Part shown: positions 54,360-64,000 of the stretch, in pieces | Numbering within the stretch: position 1 is the first letter of the stretch | Layout of the letters: each line of letters starts with the position of its first letter | NCBI RefSeq assembly: GCF_000022085.1 | Contig: NC_011894.1 | Coordinates: 4,393,001 to 4,457,000, forward strand | DNA: 64,000 bases | From: Methylobacterium nodulans ORS 2060 | GTDB taxonomy: Bacteria; Pseudomonadota; Alphaproteobacteria; Rhizobiales; Beijerinckiaceae | Reading direction: 5' to 3' | The notes under the pieces: generated by a model | Told to the model about the DNA's origin: nothing | What the model saw: only the letters and a program-made list of their open reading frames with translations | Database searches by the model: none | Position numbers and translations under genes: made by a program

Positions 54360-55163
54360 ATGTCGACAGCACAACTCGTCGTGCAGCACCTGCCGTACCT
54401 GCGCCGCTACGCGCGCGCGCTGACCGGCAGCCAAGTGGCCGGCGATGCCTACGTGGCCGCGACGCTCGAAACGCTCGTCAACGAGCCCGAAACGCTGGGC
54501 CGCAGCGCGAACGTCAAGGCGGATCTGTTTCGGGTTTTCACGCGGATCTGGAACTCGCTCTCGGTGAACGGCCAGATCGAGCAGGTGCAGCACGACCTCC
54601 CGGCCGAGGTGCGGCTGGGGCAGATCACGCCTCTGCCGCGCCAGGCCTTCCTGCTGTCCTGCCTGGAGGGATTCTCGGAGGAGGATGCCGCCACCATCCT
54701 GGGCGTCGATGTCTCCGAGGTGCGCGACCTCGTGGACGAAGCGGGCCGCGAACTCGCCGCCGACATGGCGACCGAGATCCTCATCATCGAGGACGAGCCG
54801 CTCATCGCCATGGATCTCGAAGCCCTGGTCGAGGGGCTCGGCCACAACGTGACCGGCGTCGCGCGCACCCGCTCGGAAGCCATCAAGCTCGCGGAAGGCC
54901 GCCGACCGGGCCTGATCCTGGCCGACATCCAGCTTGCGGACGGCAGTTCGGGCCTCGATGCAGTCAATGACCTGCTCAAGACCTTCGAGGTGCCGGTGAT
55001 CTTCATCACCGCCTATCCGGAGCGCTTCCTCACCGGCGAGCGGCCGGAACCCGCCTTCCTCATCGCCAAGCCCTTCCAGCCCGCGAACGTCTCGGCGGTG
55101 ATCAGCCAGGCGCTGTTCTTCCAGCAGAGCGCCCGCCGCCGCGAGGCCAAGGCCGCCGTCTGA
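54360..55163 (+). CDS. phyR: general stress response regulator PhyR
   Basis: A 267-residue protein made of an N-terminal sigma-factor-like domain (about 1-130: LPYLRRYARALTGSQVAGDA, then LPRQAFLLSCLEGFSEEDAA and the region-4-like ILGVDVSEVRDLVDEAGREL) and a C-terminal receiver domain. The receiver has the acidic pair Glu144-Asp145, phosphoacceptor Asp189 (ILADIQLADG), Thr217 and Lys237. On phosphorylation the sigma-like domain captures NepR and frees EcfG. Length and order match PhyR of Methylobacterium. The cognate kinase is not visible nearby. Two strong terminators follow. Confidence 0.97.
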   Translation: MSTAQLVVQHLPYLRRYARALTGSQVAGDAYVAATLETLVNEPETLGRSANVKADLFRVFTRIWNSLSVNGQIEQVQHDLPAEVRLGQITPLPRQAFLLSCLEGFSEEDAATILGVDVSEVRDLVDEAGRELAADMATEILIIEDEPLIAMDLEALVEGLGHNVTGVARTRSEAIKLAEGRRPGLILADIQLADGSSGLDAVNDLLKTFEVPVIFITAYPERFLTGERPEPAFLIAKPFQPANVSAVISQALFFQQSARRREAKAAV

Positions 55164-57215: not shown

Positions 57216-57538
57216 CACCGCCGGCCCGAGCCGCGACGCGCCGGGCCGTCGACCCATCGCGAAATCTCGATGCCAAGCCAGAGGCTTGGCAAGCATCCGA
57301 GACCCGAGCCGACGGGCATGGTCGAGGCCCGTCGGGATGACGCGTCCGCTTCCCGCTACGGGCTGCCTCGACACAAGCCCCATTTCCTTGGAGGCAGCCG
57401 CGCCCTAAGCAGTCTCCGGTGGCGCGACGCCACGACGGTCGACCGAGACCCCTTGATTCCGCGTCATTTTTCCGGCGGGGCGTGCGACTCATCCGGGAAA
57501 TGGCGCGCAGGGGGATCGGGCGGGGCTACAGGTGGCGC
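57216..57538. promoter_or_regulatory. intergenic region before the ABC protein gene
   Basis: No gene seen. A hairpin GCCAAGCC-AGA-GGCTTGGC (57272-57290), inside a longer imperfect ATGC...GCAT symmetry, may terminate the stress gene on the left. The right end should contain the promoter for the ABC-protein gene; no EcfG-type site is visible. The 39 codons directly before the chosen ATG remain open in frame but look non-coding. Confidence 0.35.
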
Positions 57539-60370
57539 ATGACGGACGGGGCAGGAGCGGTCGAGCGCAATCAGGTCGTGGCAGGCTTTGCCGGTCGCCC
57601 CGCCCCGCAGGCCGCGCCCCTCGCCGGAAACGATCCGGAGGCCGCCGACGCGGCAGGCGGGCTCGATCGCAGCCTTTTTCGCTACATCTGGCGCCACTCG
57701 AAGCGGGACCAGATCCTGATCTGCGCCGTGGTGCTGGCCTCGCTGCCGCTCTACTTCGCCTCCCTCGACCTGCCGCGCCGCATCGTCAACGAGGCGATCC
57801 AGGGCCACGCCTTCGAGAAGGGCAACGAGACCGCCAAGTTCCTGGTGCTGCGCCTGCGAATGCCGGACTGGTTCGGGGGCGAGCACCCGCTCTTCGACGG
57901 GTTCGAGGTCGACCGGTTCGAGCTCCTGTTCGGCCTCTCCTCGCTCTTCCTGCTCCTGGTGCTGATCAACGGCGCCTTCAAGTACTGGATCAATCTGGCC
58001 AAGGGCGCGCTCGGCGAGCGCATGCTGCGGCGCCTGCGCTTCCAGCTGTTCTCGCTGATCCTGCGCTTCTCGCCCGAATCGATCCGGCAGGCGAAGTCCT
58101 CCGAACTCGCCACCATCGTGCGCGACGAGGTGGAGCCGATCGGCGGCTTCATCGGCGATGCCTACATCCTGCCGGCCTTCCTCGGCACGCAGGCCGCCAC
58201 CGCCATGACCTTCATCCTGATCCAGAACGTCTGGCTCGGGCTGATGGCCGCGGGCGTGGTCGGCGTGCAGTTCGTGGTCATCCCGCGGCTGCGGCGCGAG
58301 CTCTTGCGCCTCGGGCGCCGCCGCCAGCTGGCCTCCCGGCGGCTCGCCGGGCGGGTCGGCGAGGTGGTGGACGGGATCGAGGCTGTGCACGCCAACGGCG
58401 CCGAGCCCTGGGAGCGGGCCGAGATCGGGCAGCGGCTCTACGGGCTCTTCGAGCTTCGCCTGCGCATCTACCAGCGCAAGTTCATGGTGAAGTTCCTGAA
58501 CAACCTGCTCGCGCAGATGACGCCGTTCCTGTTCTACTGCATCGGCGGCTACTTCGCGCTCAAGGGACAGCTCAGCATCGGCCAGCTCGTGGCGGTGATC
58601 GCGGCCTACCGGGACCTGCCGCCGCCGCTCAAGGAGCTGATCGACTGGGACCAGCAGCGCCTCGACGTGCAGGTGAAGTACGAGCAGGTGGTGCAGCAGT
58701 TCCTGCCCGAGCGCCTGCGGCCGGCCGAGACGCCGGGGCGCGACGCGCCGCTCCTCGGCACGCTGGCCATCGAGGACGTCTGGGTGAACGAGGCGCCCGG
58801 GCCGCTTCTCGAAGGGGTTTCGCTGACCCTCGCGCTGCCGACGCGGCTGGGCATCGTCAGCGACGGGAGCCCGTCGGCGAGCGCGCTGGCGCGCATCCTG
58901 GCCCAACGGCTGGCGCCCTCGCGCGGCCGCGTCACGATCGGCGGGCATGAACTCGGCGAGTGGGCCTCGCGCGCCCTCGCGCACCGGGTCTCCTATGCGA
59001 GCGTCGAACCGGTGCTGTTTCCCGGGTCGCTGCGCGACAACATCATGTACGGGCTGAGGCGGCCGCCGGACGAGGAGTACAGGCCCGAGACCGCGGAGGA
59101 GCGGCGGCACCTCGCCGAGGCGCGCCGCACGGGCAACCCGACGCAGGGCCCCTCGGGCGACTGGATCGACTATGCGCAGGCCGGCGTGCCGGATGCCGCC
59201 GCCCTCGATGCGGTGATCCTCGGCTGGCTGCGCCGCATCGGCATGGGCGAGGAGGTCTACCGGTTCGGCCTGCTCGGGCAGGTCGATCCCGTGCGGCATG
59301 CCGACCTCGCCGCGCGCCTGATCGAGGCGCGCAGGGTCCTGCGGGCGCGCCTCGCGGCGACGGGCATGGAGCATCTCGTGGAGCCCTTCGATCCGGACCG
59401 CTACAACAGTCAGGCGACGATCGGCGAGAACCTCCTGTTCGGCGTGCCGACGACCCCGAGCCTGATCGGCCGGGCCATGGCGGAACACCCGGTGGTGCGC
59501 GGCGTCCTCGACGGCAGCGGTCTCACCGACGACCTCGTCATCATGGGCGAGCGCATCGCCGAGACGATGCTCGAGATCTTCCAGGGCCTGCCGATGGGCC
59601 ACCCGCTCTTCGAGCAGTTCTCGTTCCTGTCGGCGGACGAATTGCCGGAATACGAGGCGATCCTGGCGCGGCGCACCGCCACGGAGGCGTCGGAGGTGCG
59701 CCACGGCGGATCCTGGTTCGCGCGCACCCGGCGGCGCTGGCTCGGTCTCGAGCGCTACAGCGGCGCGGACGCGACGCGGCTCATCGCTCTGCCGCTCGCC
59801 TATATCGAGCCGCGCCATCGCCTCGGGCTTCTCGACGACACGCTCCGGGAGCGGTTCGTCCTCGCCCGCGCGGCCCTGCATCGGGCCCTCGACAGCGCCG
59901 GGGAGGGCGGCGTCGACTTCTACGAGCACGGCGCCGTCTGTGCGGCGGCGCCGCTGCGCGACAACCTGCTGTTCGGGCGCATCAACCAATCCGCGGCGGA
60001 TGCCGCCACCACCGTCACGGCGGCGATCTCCGCCACCGTCGAGTCGATGGATCTGGCGGATGCGGTCGCGCGCGTCGGACTCGACCATCAGGTCGGGCCG
60101 GCCGGGCGCTTCCTGTCGGGCGGACAGCGGGCGGCGATCAGCCTGGTCCGTGCGCTCGTGCGCCGCCCGGACCTCCTCGTCCTCGACGGGGCCCTGACCC
60201 CCATGGGCGAGAACCGGGCGAAAGCCGTCCTGACGCTCCTGCTCGAGCATTTCGGCGACGCGACCAGCCTCGCCGTCGTCCTGCCGAACGACCGCTTCGC
60301 GCATCTCTTCGACGTGGTGCTGCGCGCGCACGGGACGGCGATCGCGCCGGAGGCGCCGAAAGCGGTCTGA
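57539..60370 (+). CDS. ABC exporter-like protein with degenerate, expanded ATPase domain
   Basis: A 943-residue protein. Residues about 30-400 form an exporter-type membrane domain with at least four hydrophobic segments (LICAVVLASLPLYFASLDLP, LLFGLSSLFLLLVLINGAF, TAMTFILIQNVWLGLMAAG, TPFLFYCIGGYFALKGQLSI). From about 416 an ATPase-like domain begins. At the Walker A site (438-448) it reads GIVSDGSPSAS, with Ala447 where the nucleotide-binding Lys belongs. LSGGQ is intact (859-863). After the Walker B Asp (883, LLVLDG) the catalytic Glu is Gly, and the switch His region reads VVLPNDR. About 350 extra residues separate Q-loop and signature, with three copies of an L/I-x-x-N-x-x-x-G motif. It is upstream of a cNMP-binding protein gene. 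Confidence 0.85.
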   Translation: MTDGAGAVERNQVVAGFAGRPAPQAAPLAGNDPEAADAAGGLDRSLFRYIWRHSKRDQILICAVVLASLPLYFASLDLPRRIVNEAIQGHAFEKGNETAKFLVLRLRMPDWFGGEHPLFDGFEVDRFELLFGLSSLFLLLVLINGAFKYWINLAKGALGERMLRRLRFQLFSLILRFSPESIRQAKSSELATIVRDEVEPIGGFIGDAYILPAFLGTQAATAMTFILIQNVWLGLMAAGVVGVQFVVIPRLRRELLRLGRRRQLASRRLAGRVGEVVDGIEAVHANGAEPWERAEIGQRLYGLFELRLRIYQRKFMVKFLNNLLAQMTPFLFYCIGGYFALKGQLSIGQLVAVIAAYRDLPPPLKELIDWDQQRLDVQVKYEQVVQQFLPERLRPAETPGRDAPLLGTLAIEDVWVNEAPGPLLEGVSLTLALPTRLGIVSDGSPSASALARILAQRLAPSRGRVTIGGHELGEWASRALAHRVSYASVEPVLFPGSLRDNIMYGLRRPPDEEYRPETAEERRHLAEARRTGNPTQGPSGDWIDYAQAGVPDAAALDAVILGWLRRIGMGEEVYRFGLLGQVDPVRHADLAARLIEARRVLRARLAATGMEHLVEPFDPDRYNSQATIGENLLFGVPTTPSLIGRAMAEHPVVRGVLDGSGLTDDLVIMGERIAETMLEIFQGLPMGHPLFEQFSFLSADELPEYEAILARRTATEASEVRHGGSWFARTRRRWLGLERYSGADATRLIALPLAYIEPRHRLGLLDDTLRERFVLARAALHRALDSAGEGGVDFYEHGAVCAAAPLRDNLLFGRINQSAADAATTVTAAISATVESMDLADAVARVGLDHQVGPAGRFLSGGQRAAISLVRALVRRPDLLVLDGALTPMGENRAKAVLTLLLEHFGDATSLAVVLPNDRFAHLFDVVLRAHGTAIAPEAPKAV

Positions 60371-60483
60371 GGCCGGGAGCAGGCCCCTCGCGGCGGCCTT
60401 TTCCCAGCCTTGCATGCACTCGGGACTGGCGCCGCGCGCGGCGCTGCGGCAAGGTCGGGTCGATCTGGACCGGGATGCGAGGC

Positions 60484-60930
60484 ATGACGCTCGAGACCGA
60501 GGTGCAGTCGCTGCGCCAAGTTCCGATGTTCCGGGAGGTCGATCCGTCCCGCCTCAAGCTGCTCGCCTTCACGAGCGAGCGGGTGCATTTCGCTGCGGGC
60601 CAAAAGTTCTTCGATCAGGGCGACGCAGCGGATGCCGCCTATCTGATCCTGGAGGGAGAGGCGGCGGTGACGATCGACGGCCCGGCAGGGCCGATCCGTT
60701 TGGCGGTGCTCGGCGCCAATGCGCTCGTTGGTGAAATGGGCATCCTGGCGGATCAGCCCCGCTCCGCCACCGTGACGGCCGTCGGCGCGACGACGGCTTT
60801 GCGCATCGATCGCCGGGTCTTCCTCGAACTGCTGAGCCAGTTTCCCCAGATCGCGATCGCGGTGATGCGGGAGCTCGCGCATCGCCTCGAACTGACCAAC
60901 CAGCAGCTCGCCCAGCGCCGGGCCGGCTGA
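60484..60930 (+). CDS. cyclic-nucleotide-binding domain protein
   Basis: A 148-residue single-domain protein. It has the cNMP-binding beta-roll: FREVDPSRLKLLAFTSERVH, FAAGQKFFDQGDAADAAYLI, LEGEAAVTI, and the phosphate-binding cassette GEMGILADQPRSATV with Glu84 and Arg93, the residues that hold ribose and phosphate in CRP/PKA-type domains. A helical C-terminus (IAIAVMRELAHRLELTNQQL) follows, but no helix-turn-helix, so it is not a CRP-type transcription factor. It follows the degenerate ABC gene by 113 bases on the same strand and probably senses or regulates that protein. Confidence 0.88.
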   Translation: MTLETEVQSLRQVPMFREVDPSRLKLLAFTSERVHFAAGQKFFDQGDAADAAYLILEGEAAVTIDGPAGPIRLAVLGANALVGEMGILADQPRSATVTAVGATTALRIDRRVFLELLSQFPQIAIAVMRELAHRLELTNQQLAQRRAG

Positions 60931-62962: not shown

Positions 62963-64000
62963 CTACCGCGTCCGCACGAATCCGACGATATCCTTCACCG
63001 CCGCGATGGTCGGGGCCGCGATCGCCTCGGCGCGGGCGGCGCCGTCTGCCAGCACCCGGTCGATATGGCCCGGATCGTCGACGAGGCGCTTCATCTCGGC
63101 CCCGATCGGCCCCAGCCTCTCCACCGCGAGATCGACGAGGGCGCCCTTGAAGGCCGAGAACTGAGCACCGCCGTAATCGCGCAGCACGTCCTCGCGGGAG
63201 ACGTCCCGCAGGGCCGCGAAGATGCCGACGAGGTTGTCGGCCTCCGGCCGCCCGGCGAGGCCCGCCACCTCCGAGGGGAGGGGCTCGGCGTCGGTCTTGG
63301 CCTTGCGGACCTTCTGGGCGATGGCGTCGGCGTCGTCCGTCAGGTTGATGCGCGAATAGTCGGAGGGGTCCGACTTCGACATCTTCTTCGTCCCGTCGCG
63401 CAGGGACATGACTCGGGCGGCCGGTCCGCCGATCAGCGGCTCGGTGAGGGGGAAGAAGGCCTCGCCATGGCCCCGCGCCGCGATCGAGCCGGAGAAGTCG
63501 TTGTTGAACTTCTGGGCGATGTCGCGGGTGAGTTCGAGGTGCTGCTTCTGGTCCTCGCCCACCGGGACGTGGGTCGCCCGGTAGGCCAGAATGTCGGCGG
63601 CCATCAGCACGGGATAGTCGTAGAGGCCGATGCTGGCATTCTCGCGGTCCTTGCCGGCCTTCTCCTTGAACTGCGTCATGCGGTTGAGCCAGCCGAGGCG
63701 GGCGACACAGTTGAAGATCCAGGTCAGTTCCGCGTGCTGGGGCACCTGGCTCTGATTGAACACGATGGCGCGCGACGGGTCGATGCCGGCCGCCAGGAAG
63801 GCCGCCGTGACCTCGCGGATCTGATTCGTCAGCTCGGCCGGATCCTGCCAGACCGTGATCGCGTGCAGGTCGACGACGCAGTAGAGGCAGGTCGCGTACT
63901 GCGCCTGCAGGGCGACGAAGCGCCTGATCGCCCCGAGATAATTGCCGAGGTGAAGGTTTCCGGTCGGCTGGACGCCGGAGAAGACGAGTTCCTGGAACGC
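62963..64000 (-). CDS. trpS: tryptophan-tRNA ligase, 5' end beyond the window
   Basis: 345 codons are visible; only the first few residues are missing. The class I signature HIGH appears as [11 protein letters not shown] close to the visible start ([13 protein letters not shown]), and KMSKS as [13 protein letters not shown], with [20 protein letters not shown] between them, all typical of bacterial TrpS. It charges tRNA-Trp. The gene continues past the right edge. A frame beginning at an internal Met would be too short and lacks the HIGH motif. Confidence 0.97.

Follow-up and report, generated by a model that had tools for sequence, protein, structure and literature searches.

In ABC exporters with one degenerate ATPase site, catalytic residues have been lost, the structural role of the site has been kept and the second site remains active, according to the accessible part of a published account (PMC7756269). 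A connection between an ABC exporter and a cyclic-nucleotide-binding (CNB) domain was reported for HetC of Nostoc, a peptidase-containing exporter whose function requires its CNB domain; in the accessible portion of that report (PMC10986499), HetC also requires its peptidase and an ATPase residue, and its N-terminal CNB domain binds ppGpp in vitro. A search of the open literature, outside of which most subscription journals lie, found no paper on the gene pair described here.

Here, we have analyzed a stretch of 64,000 nucleotides (hereafter the window) from Methylobacterium nodulans ORS 2060, located in contig 7 of its 8.84 Mb genome. The window contains an ABC-exporter-like pseudo-ATPase of 943 aa (57539..60370, plus strand) and, 113 nt downstream on the same strand, a CNB protein of 148 aa without a DNA-binding part (60484..60930, plus strand). 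The coordinates, lengths and motifs that an initial annotation had given for both proteins all held when frames and motif positions were rechecked. We consider it reasonably probable, from sequence comparisons, that the two form one putative ATP-independent, cyclic-nucleotide-controlled membrane unit of ABC fold that is tied to glycan assembly. The frame of the large protein has an ATG start at 57539 and an in-frame GTG upstream at 57419, and alignments with homologues mostly begin near residue 42. Pfam detects ABC_membrane (9.5e-15) and ABC_tran (1.8e-10) in it; both the exporter transmembrane domain and the NBD fold are present. Its nearest named relatives, among the best 80 of 419 found, belong to Methylobacterium (L057, L058 and L093; 86% and 77% identity). 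Elsewhere in the window lie a PhyR-type response regulator with a sigma-like and a receiver domain (54360-55163) and, on the minus strand at 62963-64000, a frame that we take to resemble part of a tryptophanyl-tRNA synthetase.

The ATPase site was examined in an alignment of the 104 homologues left after identical sequences had been removed from 107, a set that includes the best 80 of the 419 relatives from one search and excludes the interrupted copy of Sinorhizobium meliloti 1021. In the window protein, the degenerate Walker A reads SDGSPSAS (residues 441-448; 58859..58882, plus strand) where GxxGxGKS/T is expected, with Ala447 in place of Lys and Ser448 after it. The Walker B region LLVLDG (879-884; 60173..60190, plus strand) has Asp883 followed by Gly884 at the place of the catalytic Glu, and the switch region VLPND (914-918; 60278..60292, plus strand) lacks the His, which was not found in VVLPND at 913-918 either. 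Lys447 followed by Ser or Thr was found in 0/104 homologues, and Asp883 followed by Glu884 likewise in 0/104 (one row ends before 883). Single residues do persist: Lys occurs at column 447 in 10 rows, Glu at 884 in eight and both in seven, although none of the ten Lys keepers has Ser or Thr at 448 and none of the eight Glu keepers has Asp at 883. The titles of the records behind the seven rows with both residues name Reyranella, Rhodovibrionaceae, Kiloniellaceae or plain Alphaproteobacteria. Their Walker A reads GxxxxGK(D/E), and Asn or Ser stands at the position of the Walker B Asp; these members look like steps toward loss. The Q-loop Gln at column 489 is kept in 6/104, and a His falls inside columns 914-919 in four rows and inside 913-920 in six. 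Judged from the alignment, every member examined shares the loss of the complete site, a loss that is gradual in its parts, and the pseudo-NBD most likely no longer hydrolyses ATP. The proposal that the protein had lost its ATPase residues is thus borne out for Ala447, Gly884 and the missing switch His of the window protein, and homologues with an intact Walker A and catalytic Glu were sought but not encountered among the 104; it needs qualification in that the Lys or the Glu survives in some relatives. Since the Walker A Lys is kept in 10/104, members of the family may still bind nucleotide, which we count against the preferred reading. The signature LSGGQ (859-863; 60113..60127, plus strand), which had been described as kept, is indeed present in the window protein but is a quirk of its branch, being exact in only 2/104 homologues.

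Compared to the NBD, the membrane domain (residues 42-395; 57662..58723, plus strand) is much better conserved. Its median identity to the window protein is 63%, versus 39% for an insert within the pseudo-NBD and 35% and 33% for the two NBD core parts, the first of which spans residues 400-510 (58736..59068, plus strand). Columns that are at least 97% identical number 84/354 in the membrane domain, 2/111 and 5/91 in the NBD core parts and 17/334 in the insert; these values rest on 101-102 rows each, with the paralogue L009 excluded. ATP-driven exporters generally conserve the NBD more strongly than the membrane domain. Conservation in this family is inverted by comparison, as far as the alignment goes, the membrane domain standing above the NBD.

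The insert of about 330 residues lies between the Q-loop and the signature (residues 511-844; 59069..60070, plus strand) and is mainly helical in the predicted structure, with pLDDT mostly >90. Within the pseudo-NBD enlarged by this insert, a Q-loop/helix unit occurs three times on the plus strand: repeat 1 (residues ~481-585; 58979..59293) carries the Q-loop segment with GSLRDNIMYGL, in which the Gln is replaced, repeat 2 (~585-665; 59291..59533) has the motif QATIGENLLFG, and repeat 3 (~765-845; 59831..60073) has APLRDNLLFGRI. Neither the insert nor the relatives lacking an NBD had been mentioned in the initial annotation. Four such frames of 382-413 aa (L223:8540-9781, L224:8531-9730, L225:8001-9200 and L226:1-1149, the last beginning at a contig end) match the membrane domain only, with 41-45% identity, and end before the NBD. 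Copper genes (multicopper oxidase, CopB or cupredoxin) stand beside L223 and L224 and beside similar proteins in three plasmid records (5/5), as judged by eye for the two loci and as annotated for the plasmid records, one of which holds a Phaeobacter protein of ~497 aa that was counted as similar. By sequence matching, the four frames show that the membrane domain of the family occurs without an NBD, in another gene context.

A second, more diverged family member of 901 aa is present in the genome of the window (L009:7043-9748); its Walker A is degenerate too, and an MBL-fold protein comes next after it. In 7/25 genomes of the genus, the family was detected only through a match of comparable strength. 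In S. meliloti 1021, the copy on pSymB (L137) looks interrupted, with two tblastn pieces and a 762-aa frame, and strain ml46 (L138) has a full frame.

The 148-aa protein matches cNMP_binding (4.3e-20) as its only Pfam domain, and no helix-turn-helix was found in it, the frame ending before any such domain. An identity as a Crp/Fnr transcription regulator was rejected for lack of this C-terminal domain. Its phosphate-binding cassette is GEMGILADQPRSAT (residues 83-96; 60730..60771, plus strand) and includes Gly83-Glu84 and Arg93, in agreement with the initial description of a small protein of this length with Glu84 and Arg93 and no DNA-binding part. Across the aligned CNB rows, Glu84 is found in 78/80, Arg93 in 79/80 and Thr or Ser at position 94 in 76/80; in PKG, Thr at the matching place favours cGMP, which is taken here as a lead only. 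Among solved chains matched over a single stretch, the nearest to the CNB profile is 5d1i, a 'Cyclic nucleotide-binding protein' (99.6 bits), followed by Crp-type regulators (77-79 bits) and then by single PKA and PKG domains (63-68). Against five relatives, dN/dS is 0.06-0.19 for the CNB gene and 0.21-0.48 for the ABC gene. Because it is low in both, decay can be set aside: by this measure, the two genes are real and under purifying selection.

The two genes are closely associated. Their frames overlap by 4 nt in the near relatives L034, L036 and L037, and many loci of Microvirga and Chelatococcus show the same overlap. Downstream DNA is available for 79 named loci, and in 69 of them a CNB accompanies the ABC gene; in the full set of 80, these 69 comprise 68 separate frames and one fusion (L112), and the other 11 are nine from Methylobacterium, one Phreatobacter MAG with 1.3 kb of downstream sequence and L119, whose contig ends inside the ABC gene. 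The nine belong to one Methylobacterium clade in which no CNB adjoins the ABC gene, and this counts against the preferred reading; a CNB match was present somewhere in the genome in all 25 Methylobacterium-genus genomes searched. In a class-wide sample of 289 alphaproteobacterial genomes (ABC at 1e-40, CNB at 1e-25), 98 have the ABC family and 100 the CNB family; 94 have the two together and 185 have neither. Where both occur, they are adjacent in 88/94 genomes (the CNB on the same strand and ≤600 nt downstream; median gap 47.5 nt), and one further pair lies at 630 nt. Of the four ABC-only genomes, G062 and G194 encode an ABC protein with a diverged CNB attached to its C-terminus, G295 is 63% complete and G148 has no CNB that could be found; at the thresholds used, six of the 100 CNB-positive genomes lack the ABC family, which is again counted against the preferred reading. 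Fusions amount to eight cases (L055, L112, G080, G145, G251, G307, G062 and G194), L055 being called by Pfam from both domains and G080, G145, G251 and G307 by equal open-frame lengths. In a predicted model of a fusion, the CNB is joined via a low-confidence linker and the model is uninformative on docking. Conserved adjacency, which had been suggested as a check on the pairing, is therefore found in the named loci, in the class-wide sample and through the fusions. In a phylum-level sample of 398 genomes, the family was detected at 1e-40 in 32, of which 31 lie inside the class, and the sole match outside Alphaproteobacteria is an NBD-less one; full pairs also occur in at least two Betaproteobacteria MAGs (L110 and L128).

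Glycosyltransferase and importer genes often surround the pair. Among the 80 named loci, glycosyltransferase-type genes were found near the pair in 60, importer-type genes in 52 and either in 64, where each neighbour family is a single-linkage cluster of which one or two representatives were scanned. Cluster 3 mixes GT4-type and GT28-type enzymes with one or more members that have no Pfam match, and cluster 4 may include other ABC ATPases. In many Rhizobium and Phyllobacterium loci, importer genes, three glycosyltransferases, the ABC gene and the CNB gene follow one another in one direction. Polysaccharide lyase and UDP-sugar dehydrogenase families recur as neighbours, as do MBL-fold proteins (15 loci) and a Methyltransf_17 protein (13 loci). 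The remaining 16/80 loci have neither glycosyltransferase-type nor importer-type genes and count against the preferred reading. In the genome of the window, a matching cluster of glycosyltransferase and oligopeptide-type importer genes (L193:8264-18708) lies 2.9 Mb from the pair; one of its glycosyltransferases matches at 69% identity, and no ABC-CNB pair was found in a stretch of 20 kb that holds the cluster. The link of the pair to glycans is one of genome context.

Cyclases are also enriched near the pair. Guanylate_cyc-type (class III) frames number 26 in 22/80 named loci versus about 5.0 expected, and at distances of up to 2 kb from the ABC gene there are 16 in 13/80 loci versus ~1.0 expected (~16-fold), where the background is a sum over 17 ABC-positive genomes (243 in 76.9 Mb, PF00211), the counts in loci come from a separate iterated profile and several of the loci are closely related (L067, L070 and L071). 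As homologues and loci are related to one another, Fisher and Poisson values are not true probabilities here. Two sets of observations weigh against the preferred reading: the profile scan detected no cyclase frame in 58/80 loci, and none lies near the pair in the window, the nearest of the 17 in the host genome being ~94 kb off. At L067:14486-16384 and L123:18582-20309, Guanylate_cyc-type cyclases near the pair have a 2Fe-2S ferredoxin domain ahead; a redox input through these cyclases is possible.

Several other explanations have to be considered. That the two are mere neighbours, the CNB gene being the remnant of a Crp/Fnr regulator and the ABC gene a transporter in decay, is disfavoured and very improbable: the separate loci of the two genes in one Methylobacterium clade, the interrupted look of the S. 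meliloti 1021 copy and an internal stop in some homologues would fit it, but purifying selection acts on both genes, they co-occur in 94/289 genomes and are fused in eight cases, and the CNB protein has no helix-turn-helix. More serious, but still unlikely, is the possibility that the 943-aa protein belongs to a heterodimeric ABC exporter as its degenerate half; the hydrolysing partner would be encoded elsewhere, and the CNB protein would do no more than regulate that pump. The NBD fold is kept in the 943-aa protein, the host genome holds other ABC-type matches and heterodimeric exporters often have degenerate sites, as stated in the accessible part of PMC7756269. However, a scan of representatives from neighbour families 2-10 in the stretches around the loci found no exporter half, drift is seen at every one of the Lys, Ser/Thr, Asp, Glu, Gln and His positions, and relatives without an NBD exist.

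CFTR, an ABC exporter turned channel, is the model for a further possibility, which is a sharper form of the preferred explanation: a cyclic-nucleotide-gated scramblase or channel, in which ligand binding by the CNB protein would open a passive path for lipid-linked glycans. The membrane domain being the conserved part, the glycosyltransferase context and the NBD-less relatives all speak for it; importers and cyclases nearby also suit signalling without passage. We give this explanation roughly one chance in four.

The single ATP-independent unit under cyclic-nucleotide control is supported by the loss of the site, the pairing, the fusions, the kept Glu and Arg of the CNB protein, the cyclases, the repeats, the conservation of the membrane domain, the NBD-less relatives and the glycosyltransferase context. 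The initial reading of a cyclic-nucleotide-gated signalling or scaffold unit rather than a pump is partly supported: both checks proposed with it, conserved adjacency and conserved loss of an intact ATPase site, agree with it, and the NBD-less relatives and nearby cyclases add to this. The membrane protein is probably a device switched by a signal molecule, not by ATP. By analogy with ABC exporters, it would be a homodimer. We infer that cAMP or cGMP from the cyclases of the cell would be bound by the CNB subunit, which would gate the ABC protein by docking on the pseudo-NBD. The docking site would be the enlarged helical region, whose counterpart in ABC exporters provides the coupling to the membrane domain. 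The change would be relayed via the Q-loop/helix units, and the membrane domain would shift its state without ATP hydrolysis. The output may be signalling, scaffolding or the passage of a lipid or sugar; since glycosyltransferase genes often accompany the pair, control of a glycan-assembly step would be most likely, either the crossing of a lipid-linked sugar or the holding in place of glycosyltransferases. The ppGpp binding of the HetC CNB domain, as given in the accessible part of PMC10986499, implies that CNB domains can take other ligands, and this counts against the preferred reading.

More tentatively, and at somewhat less than even confidence, the pair may represent a new class of second-messenger effector in which a cyclic nucleotide on the CNB protein replaces ATP, the triplicated Q-loop/helix unit docks and relays, and the membrane domain works NBD-free. 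The ABC family occurs in about a third of the sampled alphaproteobacterial genomes (98/289), and full-length members are named ABC transporter ATP-binding protein in both annotated records examined (2/2). If the preferred reading is right, that name would be wrong in kind for the family, bacteria would own a cyclic-nucleotide effector whose site of action is the membrane rather than DNA, and the action of an ABC membrane domain without ATP would become testable in a natural family with NBD-less relatives.

Compared to type I/IV ABC exporters such as MsbA, TM287/288, Sav1866 and ABCB1, the family differs in that none of the 104 homologues has an intact ATPase site, and it adds the insert of ~330 residues with its repeats as well as the CNB partner. 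It resembles TmrAB, ABCC1, CFTR and SUR in that catalytic residues are lost and a structural role is kept; those proteins keep the second site active, as far as the accessible account goes, whereas the window protein, if a homodimer, would have neither site intact. NHLP/NHLM transport, with the CNB protein TIGR03896 (cyc_nuc_ocin), offers another likeness in that a CNB protein is tied to bacteriocin-type transport; membership in it was rejected, the window proteins scoring far below the NCBIfam cut-offs (100 of 853 bits and 44.5 of 161). The closest precedent is HetC, which likewise combines an ABC exporter with a CNB domain. According to the accessible part of its report, HetC is ATPase-dependent and has a peptidase and a ppGpp-binding N-terminal CNB domain, whereas no C39 peptidase domain appears among the Pfam matches of the window proteins at E up to 0.01, and the pair in the window joins a pseudo-ATPase to a separately encoded CNB protein.
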